From: Ignavibacteria bacterium
GTDB lineage: Bacteria; Bacteroidota; Ignavibacteria; Ignavibacteriales; SURF-24
Assembly: GCA_025612375.1 (NCBI GenBank)
Contig: JAAXKN010000016.1
Span: forward strand, 1-64,000
DNA length: 64,000 nucleotides
Reading direction: 5' to 3'
Shown: positions 26,903 through 51,439 of the stretch, piece by piece
Numbering within the stretch: position 1 is the stretch's first letter
Layout: the number at the start of each line of letters is the position of its first letter
The notes under the pieces: generated by a model
Databases searched by the model: none
Seen by the model: the letters and a program-made list of their open reading frames with translations, nothing else
Told to the model about the DNA's origin: nothing
Position numbers and translations under genes: made by a program

Positions 26903-26972
26903 GGTCCGACGTCCGACGTCCAACGTCCAACGTCCGACGGTAAGAAATTATTGGGCGTCCGACGTTCGACGG
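26903..26972. repeat. Two heptamer modules with a CGGTAAGAAATT tail
   Basis: Module 1 has five units (GGTCCGA, CGTCCGA, two of CGTCCAA, CGTCCGA), then CGGTAAGAAATT. Module 2 has CGTCCGA and CGTTCGA, then the same tail (to 26981). It begins 2 bases after the stop of the sigma-54 regulator. Confidence 0.85.
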
Positions 26973-35703: not shown

Positions 35704-36255
35704 ATGAAACTGAATCTCGGCTGCGGAAGGGACTTAAAAGAGGGATACATAAATCTGGACATAGTGGATTACGGGGGCAATATGATCCACGACATAAATA
35801 CGTTTCCGTATCCTTTTGAGGATAATACATTTGATGAGATATTTGCCTCGCATGTACTGGAGCATCTGGACAGTTTTCACAAGACGGTAACAGAGCTTTA
35901 CAGGATAGCAAAGCCGAACGCGACGATAATTGTTTACGCGCCATTTTTCCTGAACACGAAGTATTTTGGGGAGCCGGATCACAAGATTCCGTTTTCCATC
36001 AGGACGTTTGACAATTACGAGTTCATAGGTAACCGTAAGCTGAAGTTTTATGAGAAGTGGAAGCTGACGCACCGTACGAATTACGAAGGCAAGGCGCAGT
36101 TTGAGATAATAGAGAAGAGGTTTATAACCTCGCATTTTGCCCCCTTAAAGTGGATGGATCCGATATTGAATATAGAGCCCGTGATGTACGAAAGATTTTT
36201 CGCGGGGATCTTCTCGCCGGAGGAAGTATATTTCAGACTTAGGGTGGTGAAGTAA
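35704..36255 (+). CDS. SAM-dependent methyltransferase (class I)
   Basis: A 183-residue protein. The start MKLNLGCGRDLKEGYINLDI is the SAM-binding motif I of Methyltransf_11-type enzymes; motif II/III follow (FPFEDNTFDEIFASHVLEHL-like region near 40-60). Such short proteins often act on sugars or lipids in envelope gene sets. The substrate is unknown. It stands alone, divergent from the MacA-like gene across 203 bases. Confidence 0.85.
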   Translation: MKLNLGCGRDLKEGYINLDIVDYGGNMIHDINTFPYPFEDNTFDEIFASHVLEHLDSFHKTVTELYRIAKPNATIIVYAPFFLNTKYFGEPDHKIPFSIRTFDNYEFIGNRKLKFYEKWKLTHRTNYEGKAQFEIIEKRFITSHFAPLKWMDPILNIEPVMYERFFAGIFSPEEVYFRLRVVK

Positions 36256-36260
36256 TAAAA

Positions 36261-36281
36261 GGTCCGACGTCCGACGTCCGA
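36261..36281. repeat. Heptamer array (three units) with CGGTAAG tail
   Basis: GGTCCGA and two CGTCCGA units, then CGGTAAG (36282-36288). It begins 5 bases after the methyltransferase stop, as the 26903 copy does after its gene. Confidence 0.85.
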
Positions 36282-36344
36282 CGGTAAGGCAACGGCAGCA
36301 GGATTGGTTTCTTTCTCGCCTGGACTCTGAAGAGGGATTGGTAT

Positions 36345-36383
36345 AAAAAAGGCAGAGGTTCCGGAGTAAGAACCTCTGCCTTT
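36345..36383. terminator. Strong bidirectional terminator
   Basis: AAAGGCAGAGGTTC and GAACCTCTGCCTTT form a perfect 14-bp stem with an 8-base loop between the convergent methyltransferase and T9SS-cargo genes. Confidence 0.9.
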
Positions 36384-36406
36384 GAACTGACCTTCCAGGT
36401 GACTAA

Positions 36407-39400
36407 TTATTTCAGAAGCATCATCTTACGCACTGAGGTGTATTCGCCGGCTCTTAAACTGTAAATGTATATTCCGCTCGGAAGGTCTTTTGCATTGAAC
36501 TGAACCTGGTATCTTCCTTCTTCTTTGTACCCGTCAACTAATGCTGAAATTTCTTTTCCTAACACGTCGTAAACTTTGAGCGTTACCTTTGATGCCTTCG
36601 GCACTTCATAGTTTATTACTGTGGAAGGATTAAAGGGATTAGGATAATTCTGTGATAATGAATATTCTTTTACTTGTATTGCGCCTGAGTAATTTACGTT
36701 CATTGATGTCACTGACTCAGTTAATACTGCCTCTTTACCCGTTGAACGGTCGGCAATAAAATATTCCGCACCAATGTTTTCATCTGAAATTATTCTTAAC
36801 TGTACAAGCCTGTTTCCTATTCCTTCTGCGTTTACATTGTATTGCGATTCTTTCATGCTGAAAAGGTTTTCTTTCATGAGCTTCGCATCAAAATATTTTC
36901 CAATTACATTGCCTGATGCATCATCAACCATTTCAACTTTGAAGGATGCATAGTTTCCGTCTTTCAAAACTTTTACTGCTGCAATGGAATCCTTAAGCCC
37001 GCAGCGGACTGTAAATGAAAGACCGGAGTTATCACTGAGCATGAAAGGCTCTGTCTCAAGATATTTTGTAAATGCTGAATTAATTTTTTTATTTCCTACT
37101 TCATTAAAATGAATATTCATTCCGCCCGAGTGAATGTTTGCAAGCGTGAGATAGAACTGGGCATTATCTTTTACTAGTCCTACTGTTCTGCCGGACAATG
37201 GTTCAGACGTTTTATTTGCTGCGGGTGTGCCGATTGCTTCCGACTGCATGAAGGGGAATGGAGCACTCAGATTTTCTGAATGCAATGCTGTTACAAACAT
37301 CTCATTGCTCATGCCGCCGTTATTGATCTGAATATTGCGCCCGTCGGTGCCTGTTATGGATTTAAGTCCTATTGAGGTGCTGCTGTTTGTGCAGACGGCT
37401 TCATAACGGCTTCCATTCGGTTCGCTCCATCCTACTATATAAGTATCGCTTCCCATGCTTATCTGCGGTGAATATACCTGTCCGGCATATTTGTTAAAGT
37501 ACTGCATATACCACGGATTGTCGGGATTGGCAAGTACAACATAATACTCGCCCCAATCGGAACCAATTTCATTATATCCTTTCCACGCCATTCTTGCGCC
37601 TCCGCCGGAGACGGATATAATGGAAGGGCTTACGTTGGTGTTGAAGTTTGCATAGATGGAAAGGAAGAAGGGAAGCGCATTTTCATCAAGGAGTCCCATA
37701 TCGTTAAACTGCATCTTCATGTAATATATCATTGCATAAGGCATTTCGCCCTGCTGCCATGCCAGGTTGAAAATGTTCTGTGAGGCTGCATCCTTTGCAG
37801 ATGAAACTGCAGCGTTTACGGCAGTGCTGTCTGTGCCCGGAATAATTCCGCCTGTGCCCCATGAGATCCCGGCGCTGCTTATCTGTCCATATTTATATGT
37901 GAGGCATCCGCCGGTTCCTTTTGTCTCCCAGAGCAGGACAGCTTTCCCTGCATATCCCCATGAAACAAGAGGTGACGCATCAGTGTCATATGATCCTTCT
38001 ATAGGTATTATGCTTTGAGCCTGCGCGGTATATTCGCCTGAAAGGTTTGAGAATACCCGGAGCTTTATATCAGACGTTCCTGAAGTATTCATGCTCTGCC
38101 ATGCAATTACAACATTGTTTTCAAAGTAATCGATGGAGGGAAGTTTTGACGGGCCTTCATCAAGAGGCTTTCCGTCATTCATAAGAATCCAGCTCTGTCC
38201 TTTATCCTTGCTTACTTCGTACCATACTTTTCCCATGCTTGAATACACGAGGTGCAGGCAGCCATCAGGAGTCATAATGAATTTTCTCTGTCCGTTACCT
38301 GTAAAGGCATTGGGGTCGTCTGAGAGGTGTGTGCCTTTAAGGAGCGCGTTTGCTTTGGAGTTGGAGCTTGTAAACGTAAGGGGAGTTTCAGCTGAAAATT
38401 GATTTCCGAAAGTTACATCGTTACCGTTCCATTTCTGGAAATAGAATTTATGAAGCTTCCCGTCGCTCTTAAGCATAATATCCTGGGCTTCAGGAGCTTT
38501 TACTGAATAATAGATGGAAGATGAAGGAGTCAGGTTTAAGAATACTCCCTTATGCAGGTCGCCGTTATTAGGAAAAGTAAATGAAGGCATAAAAGGAGAA
38601 GTCTTGTATTTCACCGGTGCATTCATTCCCTGGTTTCTCAGTTCACCGGCAAAGGATGAATCCCTGTAGTCCATAAGCCAGGGATCCTTGAAGCCTATTT
38701 GTCCTTCTGCGGCCTCAGTTCCTTCCAGGCTGTTTTTAACAGTAACTCCTTCGTACACAGGTTCAAACTGTGAAGTAAGGGATTTACCCGTGGAGTTATC
38801 TACATTTATTATCTGCTGAATATCCATTACTGAGGTGCCTGTCCAGTGGTGGAATTTCTGGTTATTATAAACTTCCTTATCGCTCCTTAAAACGACAGAC
38901 GAGCCCTTCTTAAAGCTGAGTGCCGCGGGGAGGTTATTTTTCATGACGAAAGAGCTGCCGTCCCACGTCCCTATGCTGCCGACTGAAGAGCTGTCGGAAA
39001 GCCTCTGGTCGACGTTTACAGAAATATTAAGTGAGCGGTTGATAAGAGAATTTCTGGGACCCGCCAGAACAGTTCTCATGAGTGCAATCTGTTCTTTTGT
39101 AAATGAGTTTGTATTCTGGTCGAGGTTGCTGTTCATATAGTTTGCCGAAGGCTTCATGTCCGGTGTTTTTGTCTGTGCGTCTTTAAGTCCCAGCCAGTGC
39201 CCCGTCTGATGAGTAGCGGTTCTGGCCCTGTCTACTCCGGGGTATTTTTTAGAGCCTGCGCTGCCGAAGGCCTTATAGTCGATTACGACGCCGTCGGACG
39301 TTTTTTCATAAAGTTCACTCTGTGTACTGCCGGAGTAGAAAGGAAGCTGAGCGTAGCCGTAAGTTACACCCATATTATACATCAGGTCGCACACCCATAT

Positions 39401-39925
39401 ATTAAGATAGAGTCCCGTATCCCATGCGTCGATTCCGCCCATGGAGGAATACTTTACGGCGGTCATATCCTTCCCGCCCTTAACCTGCCAGTAGAATGCG
39501 CCGTGGCTTGTGGCGGTTCTGGTGATGCCCAGTGCGGGATTGCCTGAAGGATCTGTATCGGCAAGATAGAATTCTATCATTGCATCAGTGCCGCCGGGGC
39601 TTCTTCTGAAATTTTCATTCAGTATTCTGATCTGCGACTGGATATCCTGGTCGCTGATATTTTCATCAGGCACTGCCGGGTTATACACGATGTGTACGAC
39701 GACGGGAATTCTGATAAGGCTGGTCTGGCCTGAGTTGATTTGATTTAAGGCTTCGGGCATCTTTTCCTGTACGTAATTGTCCAGGTTATTTATGCCGGAT
39801 GCCAGCAGCGGATTTTGTGTGGTAAGCTCCTGAAGATTCAGCGCGGTAAGGCATTTTTCCTGTGCCCTGAGGCTGATCTGAAGTGCTATGAGACTCAGAA
39901 TGAGAATTGTAGTTTTTAGCTTCAT
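36407..39925 (-). CDS. Secreted M43-like (pappalysin) protein with degenerate active site and T9SS sorting domain
   Basis: A 1172-residue secreted protein. Signal peptide (1-22), an M43-type metalloprotease domain around 85-290, a long beta-rich middle with sialidase/BNR-like strands, and a C-terminal type A sorting domain (SQNYPNPFNPSTVINYEVP, ending SVRKMMLLK) that should direct it through T9SS to the surface. The zinc motif is altered: residues 239-249 read HQTGHWLGLKD instead of HExGHxxGLxH, so the catalytic Glu is Gln240 and the third ligand is Asp249. It is probably inactive as a protease. I start at ATG 39925, which has AGGGGAT upstream and opens the signal peptide. Confidence 0.88.
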   Translation of the reverse strand: MKLKTTILILSLIALQISLRAQEKCLTALNLQELTTQNPLLASGINNLDNYVQEKMPEALNQINSGQTSLIRIPVVVHIVYNPAVPDENISDQDIQSQIRILNENFRRSPGGTDAMIEFYLADTDPSGNPALGITRTATSHGAFYWQVKGGKDMTAVKYSSMGGIDAWDTGLYLNIWVCDLMYNMGVTYGYAQLPFYSGSTQSELYEKTSDGVVIDYKAFGSAGSKKYPGVDRARTATHQTGHWLGLKDAQTKTPDMKPSANYMNSNLDQNTNSFTKEQIALMRTVLAGPRNSLINRSLNISVNVDQRLSDSSSVGSIGTWDGSSFVMKNNLPAALSFKKGSSVVLRSDKEVYNNQKFHHWTGTSVMDIQQIINVDNSTGKSLTSQFEPVYEGVTVKNSLEGTEAAEGQIGFKDPWLMDYRDSSFAGELRNQGMNAPVKYKTSPFMPSFTFPNNGDLHKGVFLNLTPSSSIYYSVKAPEAQDIMLKSDGKLHKFYFQKWNGNDVTFGNQFSAETPLTFTSSNSKANALLKGTHLSDDPNAFTGNGQRKFIMTPDGCLHLVYSSMGKVWYEVSKDKGQSWILMNDGKPLDEGPSKLPSIDYFENNVVIAWQSMNTSGTSDIKLRVFSNLSGEYTAQAQSIIPIEGSYDTDASPLVSWGYAGKAVLLWETKGTGGCLTYKYGQISSAGISWGTGGIIPGTDSTAVNAAVSSAKDAASQNIFNLAWQQGEMPYAMIYYMKMQFNDMGLLDENALPFFLSIYANFNTNVSPSIISVSGGGARMAWKGYNEIGSDWGEYYVVLANPDNPWYMQYFNKYAGQVYSPQISMGSDTYIVGWSEPNGSRYEAVCTNSSTSIGLKSITGTDGRNIQINNGGMSNEMFVTALHSENLSAPFPFMQSEAIGTPAANKTSEPLSGRTVGLVKDNAQFYLTLANIHSGGMNIHFNEVGNKKINSAFTKYLETEPFMLSDNSGLSFTVRCGLKDSIAAVKVLKDGNYASFKVEMVDDASGNVIGKYFDAKLMKENLFSMKESQYNVNAEGIGNRLVQLRIISDENIGAEYFIADRSTGKEAVLTESVTSMNVNYSGAIQVKEYSLSQNYPNPFNPSTVINYEVPKASKVTLKVYDVLGKEISALVDGYKEEGRYQVQFNAKDLPSGIYIYSLRAGEYTSVRKMMLLK

Positions 39926-39968
39926 AGAACTATCCCCTTTTGTTGCGGATTTTATTATTTTAGGCCAA

Positions 39969-40060
39969 GCAAACAAAAAGGCGTACTTCACCCTTTGTGG
40001 TGAAAGTTGACCCCGCCTTGGTGTTTGCGCTTAAGCTGTCCGGATGGTTCCAGCATCCGG
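39969..40060 (-). promoter_or_regulatory. Highly structured leader upstream of the M43-like gene
   Basis: On the minus strand a CCGGATG/CATCCGG hairpin (40040-40060) is followed by a nested stem: GCAAACA/TGTTTGC outside, AAGGCG/CGCCTT in the middle and TTTCACC/GGTGAAG inside (39969-40028). The middle stem is followed by TTTTTGTTTG, as in an intrinsic terminator. It lies 44-135 bases before the start codon, so it could be an attenuator or riboswitch. Confidence 0.45.
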
Positions 40061-40127
40061 GCGGCATTGTTTTATTTAGTTAAAATTTATCTGTAATATT
40101 TCCTGGTTATTGGTTCCTCTTTGGGCT

Positions 40128-40147
40128 ACATGTAACATGTACATGTA
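40128..40147. repeat. Three head-to-tail ACATGTA units
   Basis: ACATGTA repeats at 40128, 40135 and 40141 (the last shares one base). Each core ACATGT is palindromic, so this could be a regulatory protein site for the M43-like gene. Confidence 0.35.
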
Positions 40148-40196
40148 AAATTTACCTGTAAAAGTGATTGCCTCTTCAAAAGAAATCGAATAAAAG

Positions 40197-40225
40197 CGCG
40201 GAAACAGGGTTATTCCGCGGTTTTT
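40197..40225. terminator. Terminator-like hairpin
   Basis: CGCGGAA and TTCCGCG arms around a 9-base interior, followed by GTTTTT on the plus strand and by CTTTTATT on the minus strand. It may end the DUF423 transcript coming from 40492. Confidence 0.5.
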
Positions 40226-40292
40226 CCAACTTCCTGCATCAACAAATCCCATTTAACATTAATATGATTCAAATTTTAAGCCACGGGAGGAA

Positions 40293-40378
40293 GGTCCGAC
40301 GGGGAGGAAGGTCCGACGTCCAACGTCCGACGTCCGACGGGAGGGAAGGTCCGACGTCCAACGTCCGACGTCCGACGG
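40293..40378. repeat. Heptamer arrays (three blocks)
   Basis: Blocks at 40293-40299 (one unit), 40310-40337 (four) and 40348-40375 (four), each ending CGGG. Units are GGTCCGA, CGTCCAA and CGTCCGA, separated by a GGGAGGAA-like spacer, so the whole block looks duplicated. Confidence 0.85.
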
Positions 40379-40390
40379 GAGGAAGGGGAA

Positions 40391-40486
40391 TGAATTGCCG
40401 CGAGCTTTTAGCTCGTGGATTGCGGAATCCCCTCTCCCCGTTTGGGCTTTAGCCCCGGATTTTCACAGGAGGATTGTGGCTATTTT
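40391..40486. repeat. Palindromic element related to the 4382 element
   Basis: A GCCGCGAGCTTTTAGCTCGTGG hairpin, spread over 40397-40418, is followed by GGGCTTTAGCCCCGGATTTT (also seen at 4435 as GGGCTTTAGCCCCAGATTTT) and an end TTGTGGCTATT. No coding capacity. Together with the heptamers it fills 39926-40491. Confidence 0.6.
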
Positions 40487-40491
40487 TAGGA

Positions 40492-40848
40492 TTATTTTTT
40501 TATTCCGTAGTATGCGATAAGGGACCAGCCTGTGAGGAAGCTTACGCCGCCAAAGGGGGTGATGAAGGCCAGGAATTTTATGCCTGTTACGGCATAGGCG
40601 TAAAGGGAGAATGAAAAAAGTATTATTCCTGCAAGGATGAAGGCTGCGGCTTTGTTTAATTTTTCATTGTTGTAGAATCCTATTGAAAGCAGCACCGCGC
40701 TATGGATGAGGTGGTATAAAACGCCCGTTTTGTACGTTTCAATATCCTGCGGCCCCAGGTAATTTCTGAGCCCGTGAGCGCCGAAGGCTCCAAGCGCCAC
40801 GCCGAGAAAACCCATTATAGCGGCAATAAATATCCATTTATTTTTCAT
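40492..40848 (-). CDS. DUF423 membrane protein (YgdD-like)
   Basis: A 118-residue small membrane protein with four hydrophobic helices and the DUF423 opening FLGVALGAFGAHGLRNYL, then TGVLYHLIHS. Family members are widespread and of unknown function. I chose ATG 40848 (MKNKWIF) as it gives the family start; in-frame ATGs at 40863 and 40875 are possible. Monocistronic. Confidence 0.88.
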   Translation of the reverse strand: MKNKWIFIAAIMGFLGVALGAFGAHGLRNYLGPQDIETYKTGVLYHLIHSAVLLSIGFYNNEKLNKAAAFILAGIILFSFSLYAYAVTGIKFLAFITPFGGVSFLTGWSLIAYYGIKK

Positions 40849-46900: not shown

Positions 46901-49900
46901 TTATCTTCCGGCGCGACCGAGGGATTTTTCGAGTTCGGCTCCGGCTACCAGGTAATCGTAAACGGCCTGGAGGTAATTTGTTTTTGCCTGTGTTAAGGCA
47001 AGCTCGGCGTCAAAAAGCTCCGTCTGGCGGCTTACACCTTTAAGCCAGCGGCTTCTTGTTAACTCATAGCTCCTTTCGGCCGACTTTACCGTCTGTGTCT
47101 GCGCTTCTATTCTTTTATGCGCTTCTTCGACGCTTGAAGTGTTGACCTTGACATCCGTTACAATTAAATCTTTCAGGTTGTCAAACTGTGTCTCAAGCTT
47201 TTTCTTTTCAATTCTTGCCTGCTCAATTTTGGCCTCAGTCTTAAAGCCTGAAAAAATTGGAATTGAGAGATTAAGCCCGATTACTGCGCTTGCGGGCCAG
47301 CGCTGGTTGAATTTATAGTTGTCTGCCTGGAGCACTGCCTGAAGCTGTCCGAATGCGGCAAGTGTAGGCATGTGCCCTGCAATTTCCGCATTAATTAGTT
47401 CATCATTGGCCTTAATCTGAAGGTCCAGAAGGCTGAGTTCAGGACGCTTATTCAAGGCTTCTTCTGTGGACGCTCCGGAAAAGTCGTACTGCCTTAACAG
47501 CTCCCCGGCAGTAAGTGAATCCAAAGGTTCAACTGTTTCGCCCGCAGACAATCCCAGGAGGTTGCCGAGATAAGATTTTGCAATTGAGATACCGTTTTCA
47601 GTCTTTATCAGCATAGGCTTCAGGTTTTCAACCGCAACAAAAGCCCTTAATGTATCGAGCTCGCCTGCAAGTCCCTGCTGGTATAAGAGTTTAACATCCT
47701 TAAGTGCCTGCCTGCCTCTTTTAATGCTCTGCTCAAGCAGGTTAAACTGTTCCTTTACTATAAGAATATTATAGTATGCCTTCTTAACCTCTGTAATTGT
47801 TAAGGCGCGGGTGTTTGTTATGTTTTCAGAGCTGATCTCATCGATAATTCTGGCGGCCCTGATGCCGGCATAAATTGCTCCCTGGTAAAGCGGCCATTCG
47901 GCGCTTATTGTGCCCGAGAAATTATTCTTAAGGCCTATTTCCATCGGCTGGCTGGGGCCCATGGTGAGCCCCACCTGTGGGTCGAATGAAAAGCTCGGCA
48001 TATAGAAAACAGGAAGCTGAAGGTTCCTTGTGTACTGGCCCGATCCTGTAATAGTGGGCATTGCATTTCCGTATGCTTCCTTTACCCTCTGCTCGTTTTT
48101 CTCTTTGTCGTAATAGGCAACCTTAAGGTCCCTGTTCTGTTCAAGCGCAATTGCAACGGCATCCTTAAGAGAAAGCCTTCTTACACTCTGAGCGTAAGAA
48201 GAGGAAGAAAGTGCTATTAGTATTAAGACAAAAATACTGAAGCCTTTCAGCATTTTTCTGAAGCTGAAATTTTCGGGCTCTTCTTCTTCCACGGGCTGGG
48301 AGTATTTTTCTTCGGGAGTTTTTTCTTCCTTTTGTCCTTTTTCCTTAAACCTCTGGATAAAGTTCATAACCTTCGTCTTAAGGTTTTCAACCTTAATATA
48401 AATTACAGGAACAAGTATAAGCGTTAAGAGGAGTGAACTGATAAGGCCTCCGATAAGAGCCGTGGCAAGGCCCGATTTCAGTTCGGAACTTGCACCCATG
48501 GAGATTGCAATAGGAAGCATACCGAAGACCATAGAAAATGTAGTCATTAAAATAGGCCTTAGTCTTGTCTGTCCCGCATCAATAAGTGCATCGCGCATGG
48601 GCATGCCTTCGGCGCGCATCTGGTTCGTACGGTCAACGAGCAGAATGGCGTTCTTGCCCACGAGTCCCACGAGCATGATAATGCCGAGTATGGAGAATAT
48701 GTTGAGTGATTTTATAAACAGTCCCATTGCCAGGAGCGCTCCAACTATTGCCACAGGAATAGAGAAAAGGACAATGAAGGGGTAGACAAAAGAGTTATAG
48801 AGCGCCACCATGATGAGGTAAACAAAAAGGATTCCCACCATGAGGGCAATGAAGAGGCTTCCGAAGGACTCTTCCTGCATCTGCACGTCGCCTTCAAAAG
48901 TAACTTCTATATTAGATGGGATCTTCAGCTTTGCGAGTTCCTTTTTAATATCCTCAGCTATGTCTCCGCTCGGGCGGCCTACAGCCTGCGATAAAAGTGA
49001 GATTGCGGCGGTCCTGTTTTTTCTTGAAAGCTGTGTGGGGCCGATAGTCTGATAAATATTAGCAAACTGTGAGAGCTCGATTTTTTCGCCGCGGGTGTTC
49101 ATAAAAGTTATCTTTCCGAGGTCGGAAGTATTGTTGCGGTCGAACTGATCGAAAACGATTCTTATATCGTATTCATCGTTGCCCTGGCGGTATTTAGATT
49201 CGTCATCGCCCGTAAAGGCAACCCTGAGTGTGGCTGCAACCTGGTCTAATCCGATGCCGAGTGCGGCCATTTTCTCGCGGTTGATTTCAACACGGGTTTC
49301 AGGTTTTCCCTCGCCGCTGCTGATGCGGACGTCTGCCGTGCCGGGGATTTTCCGGACGGCCTCTTTGAGCATTTTGCCCACGTTTTCAACCTCGTTAAAA
49401 TCGGGGCCGCTTATAAGCAGGGCAATGGGGGCCATATCGGAGCTGCCGAACATGCCTATTGGGCTGACCCTCGGTTTAACGCTCGGTATCTGCAGGAGCT
49501 TTTCCTTTATTTCGCGGCTTACCTGTATATCGCTTTTTGTCCTCTGGGTCTTTGGAACAAGCGACACGTTAAGTTCTGCCACGCTGTTTGAAGTATATCC
49601 TATAAAGCCTTCTGACGAGGCACCCGCGTTTGCAAATACTTTACTAACCTCGGGCATCTTTGAGATCATCCTTTCGGCCTGAAGAGTGATCTGATTGGTT
49701 TCTTCAAGGTTTATTCTTTCCGGGAGTTCCATAATAACTGAGAGCTCGCCGCGGTCGGACGGCGGCATGAACTCCGAGCCGATGAATCCGGCAGGAACAA
49801 GTGCAATAGAGAATACGAGGAGGAAGCCTGCAAGGGCAATAACCTTCCAGCTGTTCTTCAATCCGAGTTTCAAGGCCTGGGTATATTTTTCAGTAAGCTT

Positions 49901-51439
49901 ATCAAAAGCTTTTTCAACCCACATGCCGAAGCGTCCCATTGCGGTATCTTTTGTAAGACGCTGCAGCCGGGTAAAGCGGGAGGCAAGCATAGGAGTAATA
50001 GTAAAGGAAACAAAAAGGCTTAAGAGTGTGGATACGACCACAACAAGTGCAAACTGCCGCACAATGTCGCCAATGAGTCCCTGAATAAGTGCAAGGGGAA
50101 GGAACACCACAACGTCCACAAGCGTAATTGAGAGGGCGGCAAAACCTATTTCATTTCTTCCTTCGAGTGCTGCCTGGCGCTGCGGTTTCCCGAGCTCCAT
50201 ATGGCGGTAGATATTTTCAAGTACCACAATTGAGTCATCAACGAGTATGCCGATTACGAGTGAAAGCGCCAGGAGCGTCATAAGGTTAAGGGAGAAACCG
50301 AAGGCGTACATTCCTATAAAAGTAGAAACAAGTGACGCCGGTATGGCAACCATTACGATAAGGGAGTTCCTGAGGTTGTGGAGGAATATAAGCATTACAA
50401 TTGCCACAAGCACAACGGCAATCATAAGGTCCTTATTTACGGCGTGTGCCGCTTCGAGAGTAAAGCCAGAAAGGTCCTGCGCCACGTCGAACTTCAGTTT
50501 CATGCCAGCGTTTGCGGCTTCAATTTTTTTAAGCTCCTGATTAACAAGGCGGCTTACTTCAACTGCATTGGCGTCGGTCTGTTTCTGCACCAGCACGCCA
50601 AGGGCGCTTTTGCCATTGAGCCTGGCGTAGCTCTCGGCTTCTTTTGTACCGTCTTCGACCTCGGCCACGTCCTGAAGCTTTATGTTACCTCCGGCCTCAG
50701 AGCGGCTGACAATAAGGTTTTTAAGTTCTTCAAGAGAGGAGAATTTGCCTGATACCCTTACGATGTACTGCCCGTCGGCATCCTTGATCTTACCTACAGG
50801 GAAATCCATATTAGAGCTTTTTATTGCCTGAAGGATCTGCAGGACGGGTATGTTGTATGAGTTCAGCTTTTCGAGGTCGAGGTTTACTCTGATTTCTCTT
50901 TCCTCGCCCCCGGCAAAAGTTACCTGTCCCACTCCTGCGAGTTTGGATATCTGGGGTTTAACCTTGTCCTTCATGAACTGGTAGAATTCATTCGGTTCCA
51001 TATCAGCCGTAACGCCCATTCTTAGTATCGGGAGCTCTGTAAGTGAGAACTTCGAGACTACAGGGGTTTTAGCGCTGTAGGGCAGCTGGTTAACAATTTC
51101 GCCGACCTTACGCTGCACGTTCTGCAGGGCGATGTTGACGTCTGCCGACTGGGTGAATTCAATAAATACGAAAGACACGCCCTCAAAAGAGCTGCTTTGA
51201 ATGGTTTTAATTTTATCCACGCTTGAAACCGCGTCTTCCACGACTTTAGTAATTGAAGTTTCAACTTCATTCGGGGAGCCTCCGGGATACGTAGTCATTA
51301 CGGTAACATAGGGAGGAGTAACGTCGGGGATCAGCTCGTAGCGGAGCTGATTGTAGCTGAAATAACCCAGTACAGCCAGCACAGTAAAAATTACTATTAC
51401 AAGCGGAGGTCTTTTTATAGATAATTCTGTAATCGTCAT
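46901..51439 (-). CDS. RND efflux pump fused to a TolC-like outer-membrane factor
   Basis: A single 1512-residue frame. Residues 1 to about 1040 are a complete HAE/AcrB-type RND permease: N-terminal IKRPPLVIVIFTVLAVLG, the proton-relay helix 4 (MTLLALSLVIGILVDDSIVVLEN) and a second helix block (GLVGKNAILLVDRTNQMR). After a Lys/Glu linker comes a signal-like helix (GFSIFVLILIALSSSSYAQ, about 1062-1080), then a full TolC-type domain with two OEP repeats (about 1085-1512). The frame is continuous with no stop. The adaptor gene lies 53 bases upstream, so an entire tripartite pump is encoded by two genes. Confidence 0.92.
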   Translation of the reverse strand: MTITELSIKRPPLVIVIFTVLAVLGYFSYNQLRYELIPDVTPPYVTVMTTYPGGSPNEVETSITKVVEDAVSSVDKIKTIQSSSFEGVSFVFIEFTQSADVNIALQNVQRKVGEIVNQLPYSAKTPVVSKFSLTELPILRMGVTADMEPNEFYQFMKDKVKPQISKLAGVGQVTFAGGEEREIRVNLDLEKLNSYNIPVLQILQAIKSSNMDFPVGKIKDADGQYIVRVSGKFSSLEELKNLIVSRSEAGGNIKLQDVAEVEDGTKEAESYARLNGKSALGVLVQKQTDANAVEVSRLVNQELKKIEAANAGMKLKFDVAQDLSGFTLEAAHAVNKDLMIAVVLVAIVMLIFLHNLRNSLIVMVAIPASLVSTFIGMYAFGFSLNLMTLLALSLVIGILVDDSIVVLENIYRHMELGKPQRQAALEGRNEIGFAALSITLVDVVVFLPLALIQGLIGDIVRQFALVVVVSTLLSLFVSFTITPMLASRFTRLQRLTKDTAMGRFGMWVEKAFDKLTEKYTQALKLGLKNSWKVIALAGFLLVFSIALVPAGFIGSEFMPPSDRGELSVIMELPERINLEETNQITLQAERMISKMPEVSKVFANAGASSEGFIGYTSNSVAELNVSLVPKTQRTKSDIQVSREIKEKLLQIPSVKPRVSPIGMFGSSDMAPIALLISGPDFNEVENVGKMLKEAVRKIPGTADVRISSGEGKPETRVEINREKMAALGIGLDQVAATLRVAFTGDDESKYRQGNDEYDIRIVFDQFDRNNTSDLGKITFMNTRGEKIELSQFANIYQTIGPTQLSRKNRTAAISLLSQAVGRPSGDIAEDIKKELAKLKIPSNIEVTFEGDVQMQEESFGSLFIALMVGILFVYLIMVALYNSFVYPFIVLFSIPVAIVGALLAMGLFIKSLNIFSILGIIMLVGLVGKNAILLVDRTNQMRAEGMPMRDALIDAGQTRLRPILMTTFSMVFGMLPIAISMGASSELKSGLATALIGGLISSLLLTLILVPVIYIKVENLKTKVMNFIQRFKEKGQKEEKTPEEKYSQPVEEEEPENFSFRKMLKGFSIFVLILIALSSSSYAQSVRRLSLKDAVAIALEQNRDLKVAYYDKEKNEQRVKEAYGNAMPTITGSGQYTRNLQLPVFYMPSFSFDPQVGLTMGPSQPMEIGLKNNFSGTISAEWPLYQGAIYAGIRAARIIDEISSENITNTRALTITEVKKAYYNILIVKEQFNLLEQSIKRGRQALKDVKLLYQQGLAGELDTLRAFVAVENLKPMLIKTENGISIAKSYLGNLLGLSAGETVEPLDSLTAGELLRQYDFSGASTEEALNKRPELSLLDLQIKANDELINAEIAGHMPTLAAFGQLQAVLQADNYKFNQRWPASAVIGLNLSIPIFSGFKTEAKIEQARIEKKKLETQFDNLKDLIVTDVKVNTSSVEEAHKRIEAQTQTVKSAERSYELTRSRWLKGVSRQTELFDAELALTQAKTNYLQAVYDYLVAGAELEKSLGRAGR

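Follow-up and report, generated by a model that had tools for sequence, protein, structure and literature searches.

What purpose would a protease domain serve in a protein built for export once the center of its catalytic motif is gone? The question is raised by one gene in the window analyzed here, a 64,000-nucleotide stretch of contig JAAXKN010000016.1 from an Ignavibacteria bacterium. The original prediction for this gene, made from the letters alone, was a T9SS cargo with an M43 fold and a broken zinc motif. We followed it up through gene integrity, homology, the state of the active site, the relatives of both halves of the protein, and the pattern of conservation across the head.

An open frame for a T9SS cargo

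The gene and all of its features given below lie on the minus strand. The open reading frame spans 36407–39991, and the ATG at 39925 is the natural start, which gives a protein of 1172 aa (36407–39925) as judged by ORF, Pfam, and codon usage. By inspection only, the N-terminus is signal peptide-like (MKLKTTILILSLIALQISLRA followed by QEKC), and the predicted Sec signal peptide occupies aa 1–21 (39863–39925) with a cleavage site (LRA/QEKC) placed by alignment to the start of promirolysin. A T9SS type A C-terminal sorting domain at aa 1094–1169 (36419–36646) scores above the cut-offs of both PF18962, Por_Secre_tail (41.9 bits against 27, E = 1.3e-10), and TIGR04183 (43.3 bits against 23, E = 2.6e-11). 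The genome also encodes the T9SS translocon SprA, the sole component of the system tested, at 809.6 bits and over its cut-off. The description as T9SS cargo is borne out by these observations. In the mechanism that we propose, Sec and T9SS would export the protein, and the sorting domain would either anchor it or release it at the surface. Codon usage matches that of the neighboring genes in the pro-segment and N-terminal half, the catalytic half, and the tail alike, and frame-shifted readings of the gene give negative codon-usage scores. This looks like a working gene rather than a decaying frame, and when the entire ORF is considered, the open frame and native codon usage rule out a decaying pseudogene.

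A pappalysin head

When the head was searched against solved structures with phmmer, it matched mirolysin (6r7u, E = 3.8e-39) and ulilysin (approximately 1e-32). An AlphaFold2 model of aa 24–325 built from 49 sequences (pLDDT 81, pTM 0.82) matches the folds of ulilysin 2j83 (E = 6e-22) and promirolysin 6r7v (TM 0.67–0.68), with pLDDT falling below 50 at model residues 229–231, which are aa 252–254 in a shortened loop discussed below. Because of these E values and fold matches, assignment of the head to the lower-pappalysin (M43) homologues is firm, the similarity is far above chance, and the M43 fold that had been proposed is upheld. Pfam PF05572 scores the domain at 13 bits, short of its cut-off of 23, presumably since the profile is centered on the motif that is lost here. 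The short pro-segment at aa 22–69 (39719–39862), delimited by phmmer alignment to 6r7u, has Cys25 aligned with mirolysin Cys23, as in a cysteine switch. In the mirolysin pro-segment, Arg21 and Cys23 are the residues that obstruct the cleft and the zinc (PMC6949598); the alignment to 6r7u places Glu23 at the position of Arg21 and Leu26 at that of Gly24. The pappalysin-fold N-terminal subdomain follows at aa 70–233 (39227–39718) and is conserved according to the alignment and column counts.

Loss of the catalytic apparatus

Metzincins are defined by the motif HExxHxxGxxH/D, in which the third zinc ligand may be His or Asp (PMC6949598). At the corresponding site, aa 239–249 (39179–39211), the protein reads HQTGHWLGLKD and lacks the catalytic Glu. 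We aligned the head by MAFFT with 48 homologues drawn from the samples of the class and phylum. Every one of the 48 has both the catalytic Glu and the third-ligand His, and this protein has Gln240 (codon CAG) and a gap in their place. The predicted replacement of the general base is thereby confirmed, with the residue numbering correct. We consider this loss the decisive change because mirolysin cannot do without its general base, as the inactive E225A variant shows (PMC6949598); the altered sequence might still permit zinc binding alone, and catalysis is very unlikely.

The third ligand is a less simple matter. The motif had been called broken partly on account of its Asp, and the His is indeed lost, but Asp itself is allowed in metzincins, and MAFFT aligns Asp249 with the conserved Asp of a D...DTP segment and leaves the third-His column deleted. 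Loss of the His as part of an in-frame deletion is the simpler reading and the one that we prefer over a His-to-Asp swap. A plain substitution giving a snapalysin-like site is disfavored by the gap that MAFFT places before Asp249, though counting without gaps does give this residue position +10 in the motif.

The damage extends past the motif. In mirolysin, the part that links the second His to the Met-turn binds the two calcium ions and contains most of the cysteines that form disulfides (PMC6949598). This part is 18 residues long here versus 45–59 in 47 homologues, and what is left is a remnant at aa 250–261 (39143–39178; located by alignment, with the segment role taken from PMC6949598). 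The calcium loop, the loop cysteines, and the Cys following the Met-turn are absent, so that neither the double calcium site nor the two disulfides expected of an active M43 enzyme are found. The Met-turn, NYMNSNLD at aa 262–269 (39119–39142; alignment and phmmer), had been described as kept. That is true of Met264 and of Asp269, the counterpart of mirolysin Asp289, which shapes the S1′ pocket, but not of the tyrosine switch, the residue two positions after the Met (Tyr286 in mirolysin; PMC6949598), which is Ser266. Taken at the level of sequence, the head should be catalytically dead in vitro.

Could some chemistry survive? His239, His243, and Asp249 could in principle form an H/H/D zinc site with altered chemistry. 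The permitted Asp ligand of metzincins (PMC6949598), the exact +10 position of Asp249, and retention of the cysteine-switch Cys25 are in keeping with such a site. Set against it are the joint disappearance of the general base Glu, the tyrosine-switch Tyr, the calcium loop, and the disulfide cysteines, and a model whose pLDDT drops below 50 at aa 252–254, and we judge residual metal binding or activity to be improbable. A sequencing or assembly artefact, or a recent single mutation of GAG to CAG, is a further explanation to weigh, given that the homologues are all intact and the two codons differ by one base. It would leave unexplained in-frame deletions of about 30 residues in total as well as the changes of Tyr to Ser, Cys to Asn, and Arg to Glu, all within an open frame of 1172 codons with native codon usage. 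Because several independent losses occur in such a frame, a single sequencing error is insufficient, and we give this explanation hardly any credence.

Relatives and origin of the gene

A sample of 164 genomes of the order yielded no orthologue, so the proposed comparison of Gln240 and Asp249 across orthologues had nothing to draw on, and the homologues in the alignment uniformly keep the intact Glu and His. Nine other genomes of the 164 have a related domain at no more than 47% identity, with the motif intact in all nine. The DNA pattern THQxGHW occurs in the class and phylum samples only in the window, apart from three chance frames. (A scan of contigs covering 80 loci used several patterns, two of which contain the intact motif; it is uninformative on the missing Glu and was not used for that.) The original prediction took relatives with a normal HExxH to indicate a local mutation or an error. 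Such relatives are what we see, but the divergence of the homologues and the deletions indicate instead that the loss of the motif is real and lineage-specific, and unique in the sample as far as the sequences tell.

A search for a second M43 in the genome also came back empty, which rules out the protein as a decoy for an active paralogue. Of the earlier suggestion of a binding or decoy pseudoprotease, the dead pappalysin-fold T9SS cargo stands, and a binding or decoy role is at most a candidate.

The protein nearest in the tree (support 87/71) is L092, from genome G468 of the same phylum: 1115 aa, with an intact M43 motif (HEVGHWLGLRH), a related tail, and a sorting domain. Because this closest row has an intact motif and the same architecture, the dead head probably arose from an active ancestor organized in the same way.

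Within the order sample, the gene is limited to one species. In a congener (G001), blastn shows a syntenic neighborhood at 77–79% identity in which the flanking genes lie 65 bp apart with nothing between them; in terms of the window, the segment missing from the congener (blastn against G001:C26) is 36252–40501, with no strand assigned. The congener site is empty, and the gene was therefore either gained here or lost there. Intergenic tandem motifs of the form GTCCGACGTCC(G/A)ACGTCCGACG at 36258–36285 and 40290–40370 flank the congener-absent gene on both sides, and a further intergenic copy lies at 26904–26960; the syntenic stretch of the congener has none, nor do seven further stretches of the same genome. 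These motifs could have participated in the insertion. Elsewhere in the window, at 46901–51439, a single ORF of 1512 aa fuses an AcrB-type RND pump to an outer membrane efflux (TolC-like) domain, and the congener has a 1518-aa ORF at the matching position.

A shared tail with many heads

Between head and sorting domain lies a tail of about 790 aa (aa ~301–1093; 36647–39025) that relatives and AlphaFold2 resolve into a beta-sandwich, a beta-propeller with an Asp-box-like repeat, and further beta-sandwiches. The model of the tail is an all-beta chain (pLDDT 86.7), and its middle part resembles sialidase, GH93, and TolB propellers in general fold only (best listed target, TM 0.53). A sequence search of the tail against solved structures gave no match. 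We claim no enzyme function for the tail, as its fold matches are generic propellers. Many genomes of the order have relatives of the tail (aa ~300–1172) at 28–41% identity, the same genome has them at six loci or more, and the tail of this protein is as divergent as those of its relatives. Their heads include a subtilase of family S8 (L094, same genome), trypsin-like S1 domains (L009, L012), and a BNR-like propeller (L005); other tail-bearing proteins have heads with no Pfam match. In the congener, L016 carries an intact-looking HECGHMIFGLPD metalloprotease head on a like tail; this head (HECGH..GLPD) resembles M6 by inspection, and Pfam gives no match. The long T9SS tail as a type (36647–39025 in the window, L004–L028, and L092–L106) occurs at several loci per genome throughout the order, and no Pfam family was found on it except the sorting domain.

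Uneven conservation and the role of the head

Near-invariant columns, defined by at least 90% identity in the homologues, number 53, with 26 before residue 234 and 27 from 234 on. The N-terminal subdomain keeps 25 of its 26 and changes one; the catalytic half keeps 16 of 27 and loses 11 (Fisher p = 0.002 for the two halves). Median distance to the homologues is ordinary for the N-terminal subdomain (z = −0.3) and extreme for the catalytic half (z = +3.9), and the ratio of the two is the highest of 49. The earlier statement that the rest of the domain was kept, as a fold without the chemistry, thus applies to the N-terminal subdomain but not to the catalytic half, with its 11 losses and its 18-residue segment. 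Two further measures soften this contrast. In a tree of the pro-segment and N-terminal subdomain, the end branch of this protein is the second longest at 1.51 (median 0.63; L092, 0.54), and relative-rate counts against L092 come to 9 to 2 for the N-terminal subdomain (p = 0.065), compared with 11 to 1 (p = 0.006) for the catalytic half. Because of the long end branch and the 9-to-2 count, the N-terminal half appears somewhat relaxed too, less than the catalytic half.

The explanation that we favor, with modest confidence, is a T9SS surface or secreted protein whose catalytically dead M43 head acts as a non-catalytic binding head. The kept N-terminal subdomain, which contributes the upper edge of the substrate cleft, and the S1′ Asp would bind, but not cleave, a protein or peptide, and the propeller and beta-sandwich part would serve as a stalk. 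The main rival is that the head is vestigial: the tail would do the work of binding or anchoring, and the protease domain would be a folded N-terminal cap tolerated by T9SS export. Relatives that carry the same tail behind many different heads, or behind no recognized enzyme, fit a vestigial head, as do the acceleration of the N-terminal subdomain and the restriction of the gene to one species in the order sample. Harder to reconcile with it are the near-complete N-terminal positions beside a catalytic half that has shed 11 of 27 positions and some 30 residues, and the retention of the pro-segment Cys, Met264, and the S1′ Asp. We regard the vestigial head as a serious contender, though the less probable of the two. 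A broader proposal, which builds on the binding head and which we put forward only as speculation, is that the common T9SS tail is a carrier with exchangeable heads in this class (S8, S1, M6-like, M43, and others), and that here a protease head has been turned into a non-catalytic ligand binder, with cleft rim and S1′ pocket retained.

Comparison with known systems

Mirolysin from Tannerella forsythia, ulilysin, and cytophagalysin, lower pappalysins of MEROPS family M43, share with this protein the pro-segment and N-terminal subdomain fold, the cysteine-switch Cys, the Met-turn Met, and the S1′ Asp. It differs from them in having lost the catalytic Glu, third His, tyrosine-switch Tyr, disulfide cysteines, and calcium loop, and in its propeller-containing tail; Ig-like domains and a C-terminal domain of T9SS-like type are present in cytophagalysin too (PMC11674741). 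L092 has the same domain order and 33% identity over aa 7–555, whereas its intact motif and complete calcium/disulfide loop lead us to predict an active enzyme. Pseudo-metallopeptidases are a known kind of protein (PMC11266112) and well described in animals; that review leaves the pappalysin family unmentioned. The literature searched contained no report of an inactive lower pappalysin, a result that argues only weakly that none exists. For peptidase family M6, inactivated T9SS metalloproteases have a curated family of their own, NCBIfam NF052323 (T9SS-dependent M6-like inactivated metalloprotease). The likeness is one of name, a T9SS-exported inactivated metalloprotease; against that model the window protein scores 27.7 bits (cut-off 600), through its sorting domain only, and it falls outside the family. 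As a single-species gene with a candidate binding head, the protein is of limited reach; a half-kept natural pappalysin would nonetheless allow substrate binding to be told apart from catalysis and reveal the use of a dead protease that bacteria secrete. A functional analogy for surface protein binding comes from 00502 and 00509 of Paraprevotella clara, non-catalytic T9SS-dependent surface proteins, of which 00502 combines a propeller with Ig-like domains and recruits trypsin (PMC9477747). These proteins differ from ours in having no pappalysin head, and by analogy the window protein may act at the cell surface much as 00502 does.
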